Assembly (NCBI RefSeq): GCF_030499575.1
Contig: NZ_JASTLC010000001.1
Location: 5,666,001-5,730,000, forward strand
Direction: 5' to 3'
DNA: 64,000 nucleotides
DNA from: Streptomyces sp. DG2A-72
GTDB taxonomy: Bacteria; Actinomycetota; Actinomycetes; Streptomycetales; Streptomycetaceae
Shown here piece by piece: positions 1 through 9,842 of this stretch. Made by a program: the position numbers and the translations under genes. Positions within the stretch are counted from its first letter, which is position 1, and every line of letters starts with the position of its first letter. The notes beneath the pieces are model-generated. The model was not told the origin of the DNA. It made no database searches and saw nothing but the letters and a program-made list of their open reading frames with translations.

Positions 1-1067
1 TTCCACAGCAGGTCGAAACTCAAGGTCACACTCGGGTCGTCGGCAGGTCGCATGTGGTAGAAGGGCCGGATGCCGACCGGGTAGTGCGTGATGAACACGA
101 ACTCGTGCCCGGTGGCCTCCTTGATGTGGGCCGAAATACCCCGCTCGCCCTCCGGGTCCAGGTCTTCCTTGACGCCTGCGGGGTCCCAGCCGCCCTTACG
201 TAGGATCTCGTGCGCCTCGGCCATGGTGATGCAGGGAAAGGGCGACGTGGGGACGGTGACCTCGACGCCGAAGTGTTCGGTGATCGCCTCGCCGTGCGCG
301 TCGGCGACCTTGGCGATCGCGTGGGCGAGCATCTGCTCCTCGAACGCCATCACGTCCTCGACCCCGTCGATCCAGGCCAACTCCACATCGACGCCGGTGA
401 ACTCGGTGGCGTGCCGGGAGGTGAACGACGGCTCGGCACGGAAGACCGGCCCGATCTCGAAGACCTTGTCGACGCCGGCCGCGATCGCCATCTGCTTGAA
501 GAACTGCGGCGACTGCGCCAGGAAGGCGCTGCGGCCGAAGTAGCCGAGCTTGAAGACCTCCGCGCCGGACTCCGAGGCAGTGCCCATGAGCTTGGGGGTG
601 TGCATCTCGGTGGCGCCCTGCGCGTAGGCGTACTCGCGCATACCCTGTTCCAGGGTGGTCTGCACGGCGAACATCAGCTGGGTGGCGGGACGGCGGCGCA
701 CGTCCAGGAAGCGCCAGTCCAACCGCTGCTCCAAGCCTGTGTGGTCATCGATCGGCAGCGGCGTGGCGGCCGGGTTCAGGACCTCGACCGCTTCGGGGAC
801 GATCTCCAGGCCGCCGAGCTTGACCTGGGCAGCGTCGACGACGCGGCCGGTGATCCTGACGGCGGACTCGGATGTGAGGGCTTCGAGCTGGGCCTCCAGT
901 GGCCCATCGTCGCGCTTGTGGGTCACCTGGACCATGCCGGTGTGGTCGCGCACGATGACGAACTGCATCTTGCGCTGCAGGCGGAGGGTGTTCACCCATC
1001 CGCAGACGGAAACGGTACGGCCGACGTGTTCTCGCAGGTTGGAGACGTGTACGCGGCGGTGGATCAT
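1..1067 (-). CDS. aspS: Aspartyl-tRNA synthetase, archaeal/eukaryal type (3' end outside window)
   Basis: Class II aminoacyl-tRNA synthetase that charges tRNA with aspartate in the cytoplasm. Read on the minus strand, the protein starts MIHRRVHVSNLREHVG, has an OB-fold anticodon-binding domain over about residues 1-110, and then the class II core with motif 2 seen as FRAEPSFTSRHATEF. No bacterial GAD insertion is seen, so it resembles archaeal and eukaryal AspRS rather than the usual ~590-residue bacterial enzyme. About 355 codons are present; the family is usually ~430. The ATG is preceded by GGAGGA with 5-base spacing, and that site lies inside a hairpin of the T-box leader. Probably a second, accessory AspRS. 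Whether it discriminates tRNA-Asp from tRNA-Asn cannot be told from what is visible. Confidence 0.9.
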   Translation of the reverse strand, partial: MIHRRVHVSNLREHVGRTVSVCGWVNTLRLQRKMQFVIVRDHTGMVQVTHKRDDGPLEAQLEALTSESAVRITGRVVDAAQVKLGGLEIVPEAVEVLNPAATPLPIDDHTGLEQRLDWRFLDVRRRPATQLMFAVQTTLEQGMREYAYAQGATEMHTPKLMGTASESGAEVFKLGYFGRSAFLAQSPQFFKQMAIAAGVDKVFEIGPVFRAEPSFTSRHATEFTGVDVELAWIDGVEDVMAFEEQMLAHAIAKVADAHGEAITEHFGVEVTVPTSPFPCITMAEAHEILRKGGWDPAGVKEDLDPEGERGISAHIKEATGHEFVFITHYPVGIRPFYHMRPADDPSVTLSFDLLW

Positions 1068-1345
1068 TCGGGTCCTCCGAAGGACTTCGTCATGATCCCT
1101 TGGGAGTGCGGGCGAGAAGGGCAACTCGCGGTGCCACCGCACTTTCGCCGCCACAGAGTGGCGGCCTCATTCAGGCCCGGTGACGGGGGCCGGCCGGCGG
1201 GGCATTGGACCACCAGTCGGGGTCGTTCCTCCCCGCGCTCAGGAGGGTCTTCACCTCGGGGCGCGAGACCGCCTTCCCAGCTTCCGGCGGCTCTCTCTGC
1301 TCACGTGATCCGTGGCTACTCGTCTCCGTCAACGCGTTGCCCAGC
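1068..1345 (-). promoter_or_regulatory. T-box riboswitch leader of aspS, specifier GAC (Asp)
   Basis: Complete T-box layout on the minus strand. The Stem I base pairs GCGTT (1335-1331) with AGCGC (1239-1235), with UGA elements on both sides as in a kink-turn. AGTA (1320-1317) and GAA (1252-1250) form the loop E of the specifier loop, followed at once by GAC (1249-1247), an Asp codon. The AGAGAG bulge (1298-1293) and apical loop with GCTG (1281-1278) are present. Stem III is GCCGCCAC/GTGGCGGC (1165-1147). The T-box GGTGGCACCGCG spans 1138-1127; its TGGC would pair with a tRNA ending GCCA, fitting G73 of tRNA-Asp. A GTCCT/AGGAC hairpin (1085-1072) hides the ribosome site, so control is probably translational. 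T-box architecture is established knowledge; ligand and mode are inferred. Confidence 0.88.
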
Positions 1346-1599
1346 AGGATACGGAGCGTGCGGCAGCGGTGGCAATCAAGAAACTCACTCGTGGATGGGA
1401 GAACCTGCCGTGAGCCGTGCGACGGGTGGTGGACGCCGATGCCGAGGAACTCACCGGATCCGTTGGCTATCGCTGACCTGCCCGATGTAGCCACGGGCCC
1501 GAAAATTCGATGCGCTGGACCACCACGCAGTCGATAAAGTCGCCGCTTCCCATCCCTACTGGTCAGGCCAGTTGTCCGACCCAGGAGCGTATAGGCGCC

Positions 1600-3002
1600 A
1601 TGAGCCGTTTGAGCGAGTCCGTCACCCGTGTCATGCACATCCTCGATGGAGCGGACCTGGGCGTGGACTATACGGTCGCGCAGCTGCTGGGCGAGACAAC
1701 AGCACGGCGCTCCCTGGACCTCTCCGACCTCTCCCCCAGGAGCAGGCCGCCCTGGTCGAGGGGCGCGTGAACCACCTGATCCCCTCGGCCGCGGTGCTCG
1801 CCGAGAAGATCGAAGCCGCACGGGACGCGGGGCGTCCGTTCGTCGTCAAGTACGGCATCGACCCGACCTCGCCCGACGTTCACCTCGGGCACGCGGTGCC
1901 GATCATCATCGCCAGCCGGTTCCAGCGGATGGGCCACCACGTCGTCTTCATCATCGGTGACGTCACGGCCAAGATCGGTGACCCGTCGGGAAGGTCCTCG
2001 GAGCGACCGCCCCTCACCGACGAGGACATCGCCCGCAACCTGAGCGGCTACCAGCAGCAGGTCACGCCGTTCATCGACTTCGAGCGCGCCAGCCTGCGCT
2101 TCAACGGCGAGTGGCTCAACAAGGTCACCCTGCCGGAACTCGTCGGGGTCCTCGCCCGTGTGCCGGTCTCCATGTCGCTCCAGCGCGAGGACTTCCGTAC
2201 CCGGCTCGCCGAGGGCCACGGGCTGTCCGTCGCCGAGTTCGTCTACTCCGTCGTCATGGCGTGGGACTCGGTAGCCATTGACGCCGACGTCGAACTCGGC
2301 GGCGTGGACCAGCTGCTGAACCTCCAGATGTGCCGCAAGGTCATGGAGATCTCTGACCAGACCCCCGAGGTCGTCATCACCACCCCGCTCATCGAGGGCA
2401 CCGACGGCACGGGCACGAAGATGAGCAAGAGCAAGGGCAACTACGTGGGCCTGACGGCGTCGCCCGATGACGTCTACGGTCGGCTGATGTCCATCCCCGA
2501 CCACCTGACCGAGCAGTACCTCCAGCTGCTCACCGAGTGGACGGACGACGAGATCCGCGTGGTCACCAAGCGCCTGGAGGCGGGAACCGCGCACCCGATG
2601 GCGGTCAAGCGCATCCTGGCCGGCGAGGTGGTGGCCGCGCTCCACGGCCTGGACGCCGCTGCCGCCGCCCGCGCGGAGTTCACGGCGCGCTTCTCCAAGC
2701 GCTCCTTCGGGGACACCCAGAACCTCCCCGTCGTCTCCCTGAAGGACCACGCCGACGAGACGCTCGGCGCGCTGGTCAGCCGGACACTGGACTTCGCTCC
2801 CAGCATCTCCGCTGTGCGCCGTGTGGCTCAGCAGAAGGGCCTTCGCCTGATCCGCGAGTCAGACGGAGAGCAGCAGGCCACGCCTCTCGCCGAGGCTTCT
2901 GTCCAGCAGACGCTTAGCGAAGTCGTGAGCGAGGTAGGGGCACTTGAAGGTGCCGAGCTGTACCTGAAGGTGGGCCGCAAGGTCGCCCGCATCGACCTCT
3001 GA
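1600..3002 (+). CDS. tyrS: Tyrosyl-tRNA synthetase with apparent N-terminal frameshift
   Basis: Class I synthetase that charges tRNA-Tyr. The main frame has the HIGH-type motif HLGH soon after GIDPTSPD, the KMSKS loop as KMSKSKGN about 220 residues into the core, and a C-terminal S4-like segment ending VGRKVARIDL. A good-looking N-terminus (MSRLSESVTRVMHIL) starts at ATG 1600 behind AGGAG but runs in another frame and joins the core only if one C is added to the CCCCC run at 1733-1737. Without that, GTG 1768 behind GAGGGG gives a shorter protein whose HLGH is at residues 39-42 and may still be active. The one-base loss could be real or an assembly error. Likely a second TyrRS, divergent from the AspRS gene. 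No T-box was seen upstream. Confidence 0.85.
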
Positions 3003-8171: not shown

Positions 8172-9842
8172 TCAGCGCCGCCGTGCCTGAGGCTCCTGCG
8201 GGTGCGGAACGGTGGCGTGCTTGGCGGTGCGGTGTGCGTTGGCTGCTTGGGCTCGTGGGCCGGGCGCGTGGCGTTCGCCGAGGCGGCGGATACGCCAGGT
8301 CAGTGCTCGTGCGGGGCTGTGGGCGTCGTCCAGCGTGCGCTGGTTGAGGGCGCGGTCGAAGATCGCGGTCGCGTTGTGCCCGGCTGCTTCCGCCTCGGCG
8401 AGCACGGTGGCCAGGGCGTCCCAGGCGGAGTCGGCCAGGATGCGCTCGGCCTGCCCGGGGGCCGCCTGCTTCAGGTGGTGGGCGTAGCGGCGTTTGGTCT
8501 GCGGACTGGGTGCCCGGCTGGCGAGGCCGGCCAGGACCGGTCCGGTGACCTGCGCGTACGCGGCCTGCAGGTGGATCAGGGTCTGTTCGGCTGCCGCCTG
8601 CTGTTGGGCGTGCTGGCGGGTGCGGTGCCAGTGCATCGCGTAGGCGACCGCGGTGAGCGCGACGTCCAGCAGCATCGCCAGCCCGGCGTTGTCCCCATGC
8701 CGTGCGGGGTCCTTCCAGATCGCCTGGACGCTGCGACGCAGGACGCGGGCGCTGGCGTGGTCGGCGGCGACGCGGGAGCGGGTGGCGCGCTCGAAGGCGA
8801 CGGCGGCTCGTTCGAGTTCGGCCCTCGCTGCGGCGGGGGCGGTGAGCGGGAGCAGGTCGAGTGCTCCGCCGAGCGCGGCCAGCTGGCCCTGGGCCGCTTC
8901 GTCGTCGCTGCGGGTGAGGTGGTGGGGGATGCGTTCGGTGGCGGCGGTGGCCTGGTGCCAGGGGTTGCCCGGCCGGACGGCCATTGGTTCGGGGCTGGTG
9001 GTGGCGAGGCGTTGGCGGATCTTGGGCAGGGAGAGGTCGCTGGCGAGGGTGGAACCCGCGTAGAACACGGGCTCGCCCTTGTCGTTGGTGTCGCCGGGCA
9101 GGGCGAAGTTGCAGCCGAGCGCGTCGCCGGACGGGCCGAGTTTGAGGCGCACGGTCACGCCGGTCGCCTCCAGCAGGGCGAAGAACTCGGCCTCGGTGGA
9201 GGCGGCGGCCATCGCGCGGCGGACGTGCAGGCGCAGGATCTCGCGGGATGTGGCGTCGTGGCCCAGGCGCTTGGCCTTGAAGTGCTCCTTGCTGGTGGGG
9301 CGCTTGGCGGCGGTGCCGTCGCCCGGCTTCAACCGGCGGAGCCCGTAGTCGATTTCGATCTGGCGGGCTTCGCGTTGCACGGCGCGGATGTCGTAGTCCC
9401 GCTGGGGGCGGCGTCCGTCCTGGCGGACGAGGGTGGCGGCGATGTGGATGTGGTCGTCGGCGTGGCGTACGGCCACCCAGCGGCAGGCTTCCGTGTCTCC
9501 GGCGGGGGCGATGCCGGCGGCGGCCACGATCCGTCGGGCGATCTCGGCCCACTGGTCGTCGGTGAGGATCGGGTCCTCGGGTGCGGCGCGGACCGGGCAG
9601 TGCCAGACGGTGGTCTTGGGTGCCCGGCGGCCGAGCACGGCTACTGGCTGGTCGAGCTGGGTGTGGAGCTGCTTCTCCACCTCCTTGGGGTCGCGGTGGG
9701 GGCTGCGGCCGGGGTCGGGTGCGAAGTCGTTCCAGGACGCCACCAGGTGCGGGTCGACGTGTTCGTTGGCGGTGCCCTTGCCGAAGAGGTAGGCGATCAG
9801 GCGGCGGGTGTCGCCCTTGCCGAGGATGATCTTCGGTATCAC
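8172..9842 (-). CDS. Relaxase / mobilisation nuclease
   Basis: A 556-residue relaxase that would nick the element at its origin of transfer and lead the single strand into a recipient through a helper conjugation system. The metal-binding three-His motif is RHADDHIHI with His127, His131 and His133. The conserved start MIPKIILGKGDTRRLIAYLFG carries a candidate catalytic Tyr18. The C-terminal half is long, helical and Arg/Ala-rich without helicase motifs. The GTG start at 9842 is separated by 4 bases from the mobC stop, implying coupled translation. Family: MOBP-like actinobacterial relaxase, judged by motif only. Confidence 0.85.
   Translation of the reverse strand: MIPKIILGKGDTRRLIAYLFGKGTANEHVDPHLVASWNDFAPDPGRSPHRDPKEVEKQLHTQLDQPVAVLGRRAPKTTVWHCPVRAAPEDPILTDDQWAEIARRIVAAAGIAPAGDTEACRWVAVRHADDHIHIAATLVRQDGRRPQRDYDIRAVQREARQIEIDYGLRRLKPGDGTAAKRPTSKEHFKAKRLGHDATSREILRLHVRRAMAAASTEAEFFALLEATGVTVRLKLGPSGDALGCNFALPGDTNDKGEPVFYAGSTLASDLSLPKIRQRLATTSPEPMAVRPGNPWHQATAATERIPHHLTRSDDEAAQGQLAALGGALDLLPLTAPAAARAELERAAVAFERATRSRVAADHASARVLRRSVQAIWKDPARHGDNAGLAMLLDVALTAVAYAMHWHRTRQHAQQQAAAEQTLIHLQAAYAQVTGPVLAGLASRAPSPQTKRRYAHHLKQAAPGQAERILADSAWDALATVLAEAEAAGHNATAIFDRALNQRTLDDAHSPARALTWRIRRLGERHAPGPRAQAANAHRTAKHATVPHPQEPQARRR

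Follow-up and report, generated by a model that had tools for sequence, protein, structure and literature searches.

The stretch of Streptomyces sp. DG2A-72 DNA analysed here, 64,000 nucleotides long and termed the window below, carries a full-length T-box at positions 1105-1341 of the minus strand, located upstream of the aspS2 gene. We consider it probable that this RNA senses tRNA-Asp and lets a spare AspRS be translated when the housekeeping AspRS falls short. An Rfam scan at E<=1 aligns the leader with the entire RF00230 model (model 1-219 of 219) at 78.4 bits, with an E value of 3.8e-17, or 1.1e-16 for the same match when the whole genome (10.58 Mb) is scanned. The preliminary description had called this leader a complete T-box riboswitch, and the significant score of the covariance search agrees with it, yet the score is under the curated gathering cut-off of 93. 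At that threshold the T-box is absent from the cmscan output and only a tRNA is listed in the window. However, the gathering cut-off says little for Streptomyces, because 93 of 101 genomes have a T-box match at E<=1e-5 and 0 of 101 have one above 93.

In addition to the full-length match, the leader has a Stem I with the AGTA/GAA specifier loop and a codon that fits the gene, as well as an antisequestrator whose UGGN sequence, here UGGC, is complementary to the tRNA discriminator of the host genome, G73. The AGTA, GAA, GAC and UGGC elements, the antisequestrator, and the hairpin carrying the SD and start codon all fall at the positions first assigned to them (Table 1). A CRISPR-DR20 match at 1142-1176 on the plus strand (E 0.011) is below its gathering score, overlaps Stem III, and was taken as chance. 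No paper describing these leaders was found among the listings and passages that the literature search covered.

Table 1. Features of the aspS2 leader and its surroundings, in window positions.
Feature	Position	Strand	Basis
-10-like element TATCCT, presumed leader promoter	1346..1351	-	TANNNT pattern in homologous leaders
Stem I: k-turn base, AGTA/GAA specifier loop, distal loops; leader start near 1338	1237..1338	-	Rfam alignment, covariation
AGTA of specifier loop	1317..1320	-	Rfam alignment
GAA of specifier loop	1250..1252	-	Rfam alignment
Specifier codon GAC (Asp), immediately 3' of GAA	1247..1249	-	GAC in 36/36 aligned leaders
Stem II	1197..1236	-	Consensus fold, covariation
Stem IIA/B region; one pseudoknot helix only predicted	1170..1195	-	Rfam alignment, consensus fold
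Stem III	1147..1165	-	Both-side changes in 5/8 pairs
Antisequestrator with T-box bulge	1105..1143	-	12 pairs, both-side changes in 3, 100% of cells paired
UGGC, complementary to GCCA end of tRNA-Asp (G73)	1133..1136	-	Rfam alignment, tRNA read
CCCUU, apical loop of antisequestrator, complementary to AAGGG 1097-1101	1117..1121	-	Invariant in 36/36
AAGGG, invariant in 36/36	1097..1101	-	Proposed partner of CCCUU
Hairpin with SD (GGAGGA 1073-1078) and start codon (1065-1067)	1061..1098	-	Consensus fold
aspS2, 436 aa, predicted archaeal-type non-discriminating AspRS	1..1067, on to genome C1:5665757	-	Profiles
Divergent TyrRS gene, outside the switch	1767..3002	+	TIGR00234; start codon read

Judged by its profile matches, the aspS2 product is an archaeal-type, non-discriminating AspRS. 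The 355 residues (of 436) encoded inside the window score 353.6 bits with PRK05159, just passing the cut-off of 353, and 272.5 bits with TIGR00458, for which the cut-off of 368.4 is not reached. The best solved relatives are the archaeal AspRS structures 3nel and 1b8a, and class II motifs 2 and 3 are found in the protein. A second AspRS of archaeal type had been suspected in the preliminary description, and the genome indeed encodes a housekeeping AspRS of bacterial type (589-aa open frame) elsewhere. Whole-genome scanning at E<=1 identifies three T-boxes, before aspS2, a second SerRS gene and ileS, and the housekeeping AspRS gene is near none of them. The gene for TyrRS, which diverges from aspS2, is also without a T-box: the Rfam scan at E<=1 reveals no further T-box in window 900-1800, so none is located upstream of TyrRS.

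When folded alone, the aspS2 leader is no more stable than shuffled sequence (z-score of -0.53), and the structure analysis was therefore moved to homologues. An alignment of 36 leaders from Streptomyces aspS2 copies was folded with RNAalifold, which recovers stems I and II, one IIA/B helix, Stem III, the antisequestrator and the SD/start hairpin. Compensatory changes on both sides are present in 22 of the 69 predicted pairs and 98.6% of cells are paired, values unmatched by any of 500 shuffles, although this control overstates significance because the aligned rows are related. If the structures are slid along the alignment, paired cells fall to 37-50%. The outer helix of the SD/start hairpin shows no covariation because it is invariant, and the one inner pair that varies (C-G in 20 leaders, U-A in 16) reflects largely a two-clade difference. 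A TANNNT element lies 12-13 bases before the AACGCG of the leader in all 36 homologues, compared with 14% of letter-shuffled segments. One other aspS2 leader (L132) keeps Stem II through the antisequestrator but has lost Stem I and the specifier.

A leader peptide was also considered. In the host leader, a frame of nine codons begins at the ATG in GGATCATG, and its TGA stop overlaps the aspS2 ATG. This frame was rejected as a conserved feature because its relation to the aspS2 frame shifts with hairpin length, and because L062-L064, L071, L072 and L075 have this ATG at another place or not at all.

The Asp specifier proposed at the outset holds throughout the alignment, where GAC is invariant in 36 of 36 leaders, and UCC occupies those columns before SerRS2. 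A second locus set has 68 readable specifiers: GAC in 67 loci and, in L148, GAT, which is likewise an Asp codon. The 110 T-boxes of the scanned loci (L149 included) were sorted by downstream gene: the 97 AspRS2 leaders carry GAC (96) or GAT (1), all 13 SerRS2 leaders carry UCC, and the codon agrees with the downstream gene in every one of the 110. The T-boxes at L206-L213 read TCC as specifier. Comparison of the distinct sequences, 78 for Asp and a small and related group of 10 for Ser, shows fixed differences at >90% in only two of 247 columns, namely those of specifier bases one and two; the >80% level gives six such columns. Median identity between Asp and Ser leaders is 80%, compared with 82% among the Asp leaders themselves.

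Selection on the specifier is best supported by the two columns that follow the gene, which also fix the codon register. A specifier read one base later, as the spacing in ileS would have it, gives ACC (Thr) or CCC (Pro), matching neither gene. Most aspS2 leaders have C just 3' of the specifier, where the accessible portion of the literature describes a conserved purine for other T-boxes. The Asp and Ser leaders constitute a natural specifier swap, alike elsewhere but with two bases that track the gene, which makes specifier recognition directly testable in a probably translational T-box.

AspRS2 is found (E<=1e-60) in 36 of 392 sampled Streptomyces genomes; G020, with a 40% relative, and G256, G269 and G288, with partial copies, are counted among them. 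Of 38 aspS2 copies fetched with flanks, 36 have a T-box upstream, and the exceptions (L073 and L074) are 5'-truncated copies. The second set comprises 76 loci and overlaps the set of 38, with some genomes in both. The T-box motif is present in 69 of these loci. It is missing from a Thermomonospora copy (78% identical), from the loci of five distant proteins (44-47%) and from one partial copy, seven loci in all. Because T-box-bearing aspS2 loci are also located in Lentzea, Nocardiopsis and Microtetraspora, and on a Streptomyces plasmid (80.6 bits), this patchily distributed module appears to be mobile between genera. Archaeal-type AspRS genes are likewise carried on plasmids of Rhizobium, Paraclostridium, Macrococcus and others. 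The Paraclostridium plasmid aspS has a T-box of 119.5 bits, and its AspRS is 38.8% identical; the Macrococcus and Rhizobium plasmid aspS genes have no T-box at E<=0.01. On the Macrococcus plasmid (L204, 2244-7275), the archaeal-type aspS comes after genes for a methyltransferase, an MFS transporter and two proteins that match no Pfam family, and it could be the immunity gene of a small antibiotic cluster formed by this region.

A survey of the genus yielded 32 T-box loci with downstream DNA, in which the gene codes for IleRS (18), AspRS2 (12) or SerRS2 (2). SerRS2 itself is present (E<=1e-120) in 25 of the 392 genomes, although the three with 49-55% identity are possibly not genuine SerRS2. 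In 18 of the 25 the T-box motif lies ahead of the gene, and Rfam adds three, one of them partial, among 14 loci scanned. AspRS2 and SerRS2 occur together in 13 genomes versus 2.3 expected, with a hypergeometric value of 8.8e-9 that is inflated by relatedness. SerRS2 lies within the aspS2 flanks in 8 of 38 loci.

Other neighbours of aspS2 include a convergent cassette just downstream, beyond the start of the window (L006:6213-9698), which codes for two radical-SAM proteins, one of them SPASM-like, a Cupin_8-like protein and a 118-aa protein without a family match. The SPASM-like member of the cassette adjoins aspS2 in 19 of 38 first-set loci and in 35 of the 76 second-set loci, the two sets overlapping. 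This association might indicate that AspRS2 is part of a biosynthetic cassette, in which it would supply Asp-tRNA or provide self-protection for the product of the adjacent radical-SAM genes. We think this unlikely, as the other half of the loci have no SPASM-like gene in the searched flanks and yet carry the same T-box. A divergent RlmN/Cfr-like radical-SAM gene lies upstream of aspS2 in 8 of 38 loci (L055-L059, L061, L065 and L066).

The UGGC bulge had been predicted to fit a tRNA with G73, and the tRNA-Asp of the host has this base: two tRNA-Asp(GUC) genes end in G73 in the genome stretches, which cover part of 70 tRNA matches. One tRNA-Asp from each of two further genomes also has G73. A pattern search for tRNA-Asp with CTGTCAC returned no tRNA, because the loop reads CTGTCAA. 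ARAGORN reports a 97-nt tRNA-Arg at window 9491-9587 on the plus strand that Rfam does not, and this is probably a false call.

Host tRNA-Asn also has G73, which bears on a possible but clearly less probable function in amino-acid homeostasis, where the auxiliary AspRS2 would be raised on Asp/Asn limitation and the T-box would perhaps also sense uncharged tRNA-Asn. A response to tRNA-Asn is possible because AspRS2 is of the non-discriminating type, and the anticodon GUU could pair with GAC through one G-U. The available sections of a study of B. cereus lysK report that the T-box on this ancillary LysRS gene is partly induced by tRNA-Asn (PMC2916919). However, no Asn codon is present among the specifiers read, and the restriction of AspRS2 to 36 of 392 genomes and its co-occurrence with SerRS2 fit an accessory defence better.

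The match with tRNA-Asp that we favour is not equally good in all leaders. Of the 69 T-box loci of the second set, 41 end UGGN in C, 22 in U and 6 in A. UGGC pairs with G73 and UGGU can do so by wobble, whereas UGGA cannot. UGGA leaders were observed in L062, L063, L064, L071 and L072 of the first set and in L134, L135, L136, L148, L158 and L167 of the second, despite G73 in the tRNA-Asp read from two such genomes. SerRS2 adjoins all six second-set UGGA loci and all five first-set ones, where one is a piece only.

In textbook translational T-boxes, the sequestrator and antisequestrator are mutually exclusive. The preliminary description held control to be probably translational, and the conserved hairpin that holds the SD and start codon makes translational control of aspS2 likely, as its 3' arm falls within the coding sequence and is not followed by a run of U. 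Less easily reconciled with this prediction is that in 33 of 36 leaders, the host leader included, the best fold holds the antisequestrator and the start-site hairpin together. Freeing the SD and AUG is calculated to cost 9.3-14.2 kcal/mol. The platform is not uniform, because exclusive pairing of the SD with the antisequestrator forms in 8 of 36 leaders when the 5' strand of the antisequestrator is blocked, and 3 have it already in the best fold; the five first-set UGGA leaders are all among these eight. Constrained consensus folds of the aspS2 leaders gave no common alternative structure. Upstream of serS2, the best fold of 9 of 10 distinct leaders pairs the SD to GCUCC beside the antisequestrator, which corresponds to an exclusive sequestrator.

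The sole candidate link seen between the antisequestrator and the start hairpin is CCCUU/AAGGG, a pairing that we propose. Since the linker is short, this pairing would be difficult to form alongside a closed antisequestrator. The GGAUCA copy in Stem I was tried as a second partner of the start region, and it is not conserved (L047, L051, L054, L059, L070 and L075 differ). The coexistence of antisequestrator and hairpin in 33 of 36 best folds would suit a relic that no longer switches and whose hairpin merely lowers expression, as would the UGGA clade and the L132 leader without Stem I. We regard a relic as highly improbable, given that compensatory changes are kept in Stem I, Stem III and the antisequestrator and that the specifier tracks the gene in 110 of 110 leaders.

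For a functional T-box that senses tRNA-Asp, the anticodon of uncharged tRNA-Asp would pair with the GAC specifier, and its GCCA end would pair with UGGC, which would stabilise the antisequestrator. Translation of the spare AspRS would follow, whereas the SD and start codon would otherwise be held in the hairpin. We infer from these sequence features both tRNA binding and the direction of switching, such that AspRS2 would be made only when charged tRNA-Asp runs low, namely when charging of tRNA-Asp by the housekeeping AspRS falls behind. With UCC as its specifier, this scaffold would control the spare SerRS.

We interpret the module as a mobile, starvation-induced spare synthetase, and it might plausibly confer inducible resistance to an AspRS inhibitor, as its Ser counterpart might to SerRS inhibitors. 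Duplicated SerRS, IleRS and TrpRS act as antibiotic resistance according to the accessible part of a review of such enzymes (PMC9437257). Dealanylascamycin, a Streptomyces product, gives Asp and Ser adducts, among others, in Plasmodium, as stated in the available text of another report (PMC12262901), and compounds like it might select for AspRS2 and SerRS2. Our most far-reaching suggestion is a speculative one that we hold with considerable doubt, wherein a mobile actinomycete T-box family has spread between the genes for spare AspRS and spare SerRS by specifier change. In most aspS2 leaders, tRNA binding would open a start hairpin that is compatible with the antisequestrator, perhaps via CCCUU/AAGGG, and the family would provide jointly inducible resistance to antibiotics that mimic adenylates and have several class II synthetases as targets. 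Should the spare enzymes prove to confer resistance, the T-boxes guarding them would point to unknown antibiotics that target AspRS or SerRS and to biosynthetic clusters worth mining, and would broaden the Streptomyces T-box repertoire beyond ileS.

Translational T-boxes of actinobacterial ileS genes are reportedly the subject of work by Sherwood in 2015. The portion of an earlier study that was available describes these ileS leaders as having, in place of a terminator, a hairpin that covers the SD (Seliverstov 2005, PMC1262725), and the aspS2 leader resembles them in having an SD hairpin and no terminator. It differs in its gene and specifier and in its higher Rfam score (78.4 vs 42.1 bits for the ileS T-box of this genome). 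Also unlike ileS T-boxes, the start-site hairpin of most aspS2 leaders does not exclude the antisequestrator. Among firmicutes, Saad et al. are said to have described a two-codon T-box on an extra AspRS gene. One of the three aspS copies of C. acetobutylicum has a T-box, as given in the accessible text (PMC2494555), and aspS2 is similarly the T-box-led member of several AspRS genes. Firmicute T-boxes act mostly on transcription, judging from the parts of the literature at hand, whereas the aspS2 leader is likely translational.

The albomycin SerRS2, indolmycin TrpRS and mupirocin IleRS systems, as covered in the available part of the review cited above (PMC9437257), have a divergent second synthetase beside the housekeeping one, as is the case for AspRS2. 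In that part, the AspRS row of Table 1 names no resistance duplicate and T-box control is unmentioned. The lysK gene of B. cereus represents another amino acid and another phylum, but its T-box, according to the sections available (PMC2916919), is located on an ancillary LysRS1 and not on the main synthetase, an arrangement like that of aspS2.
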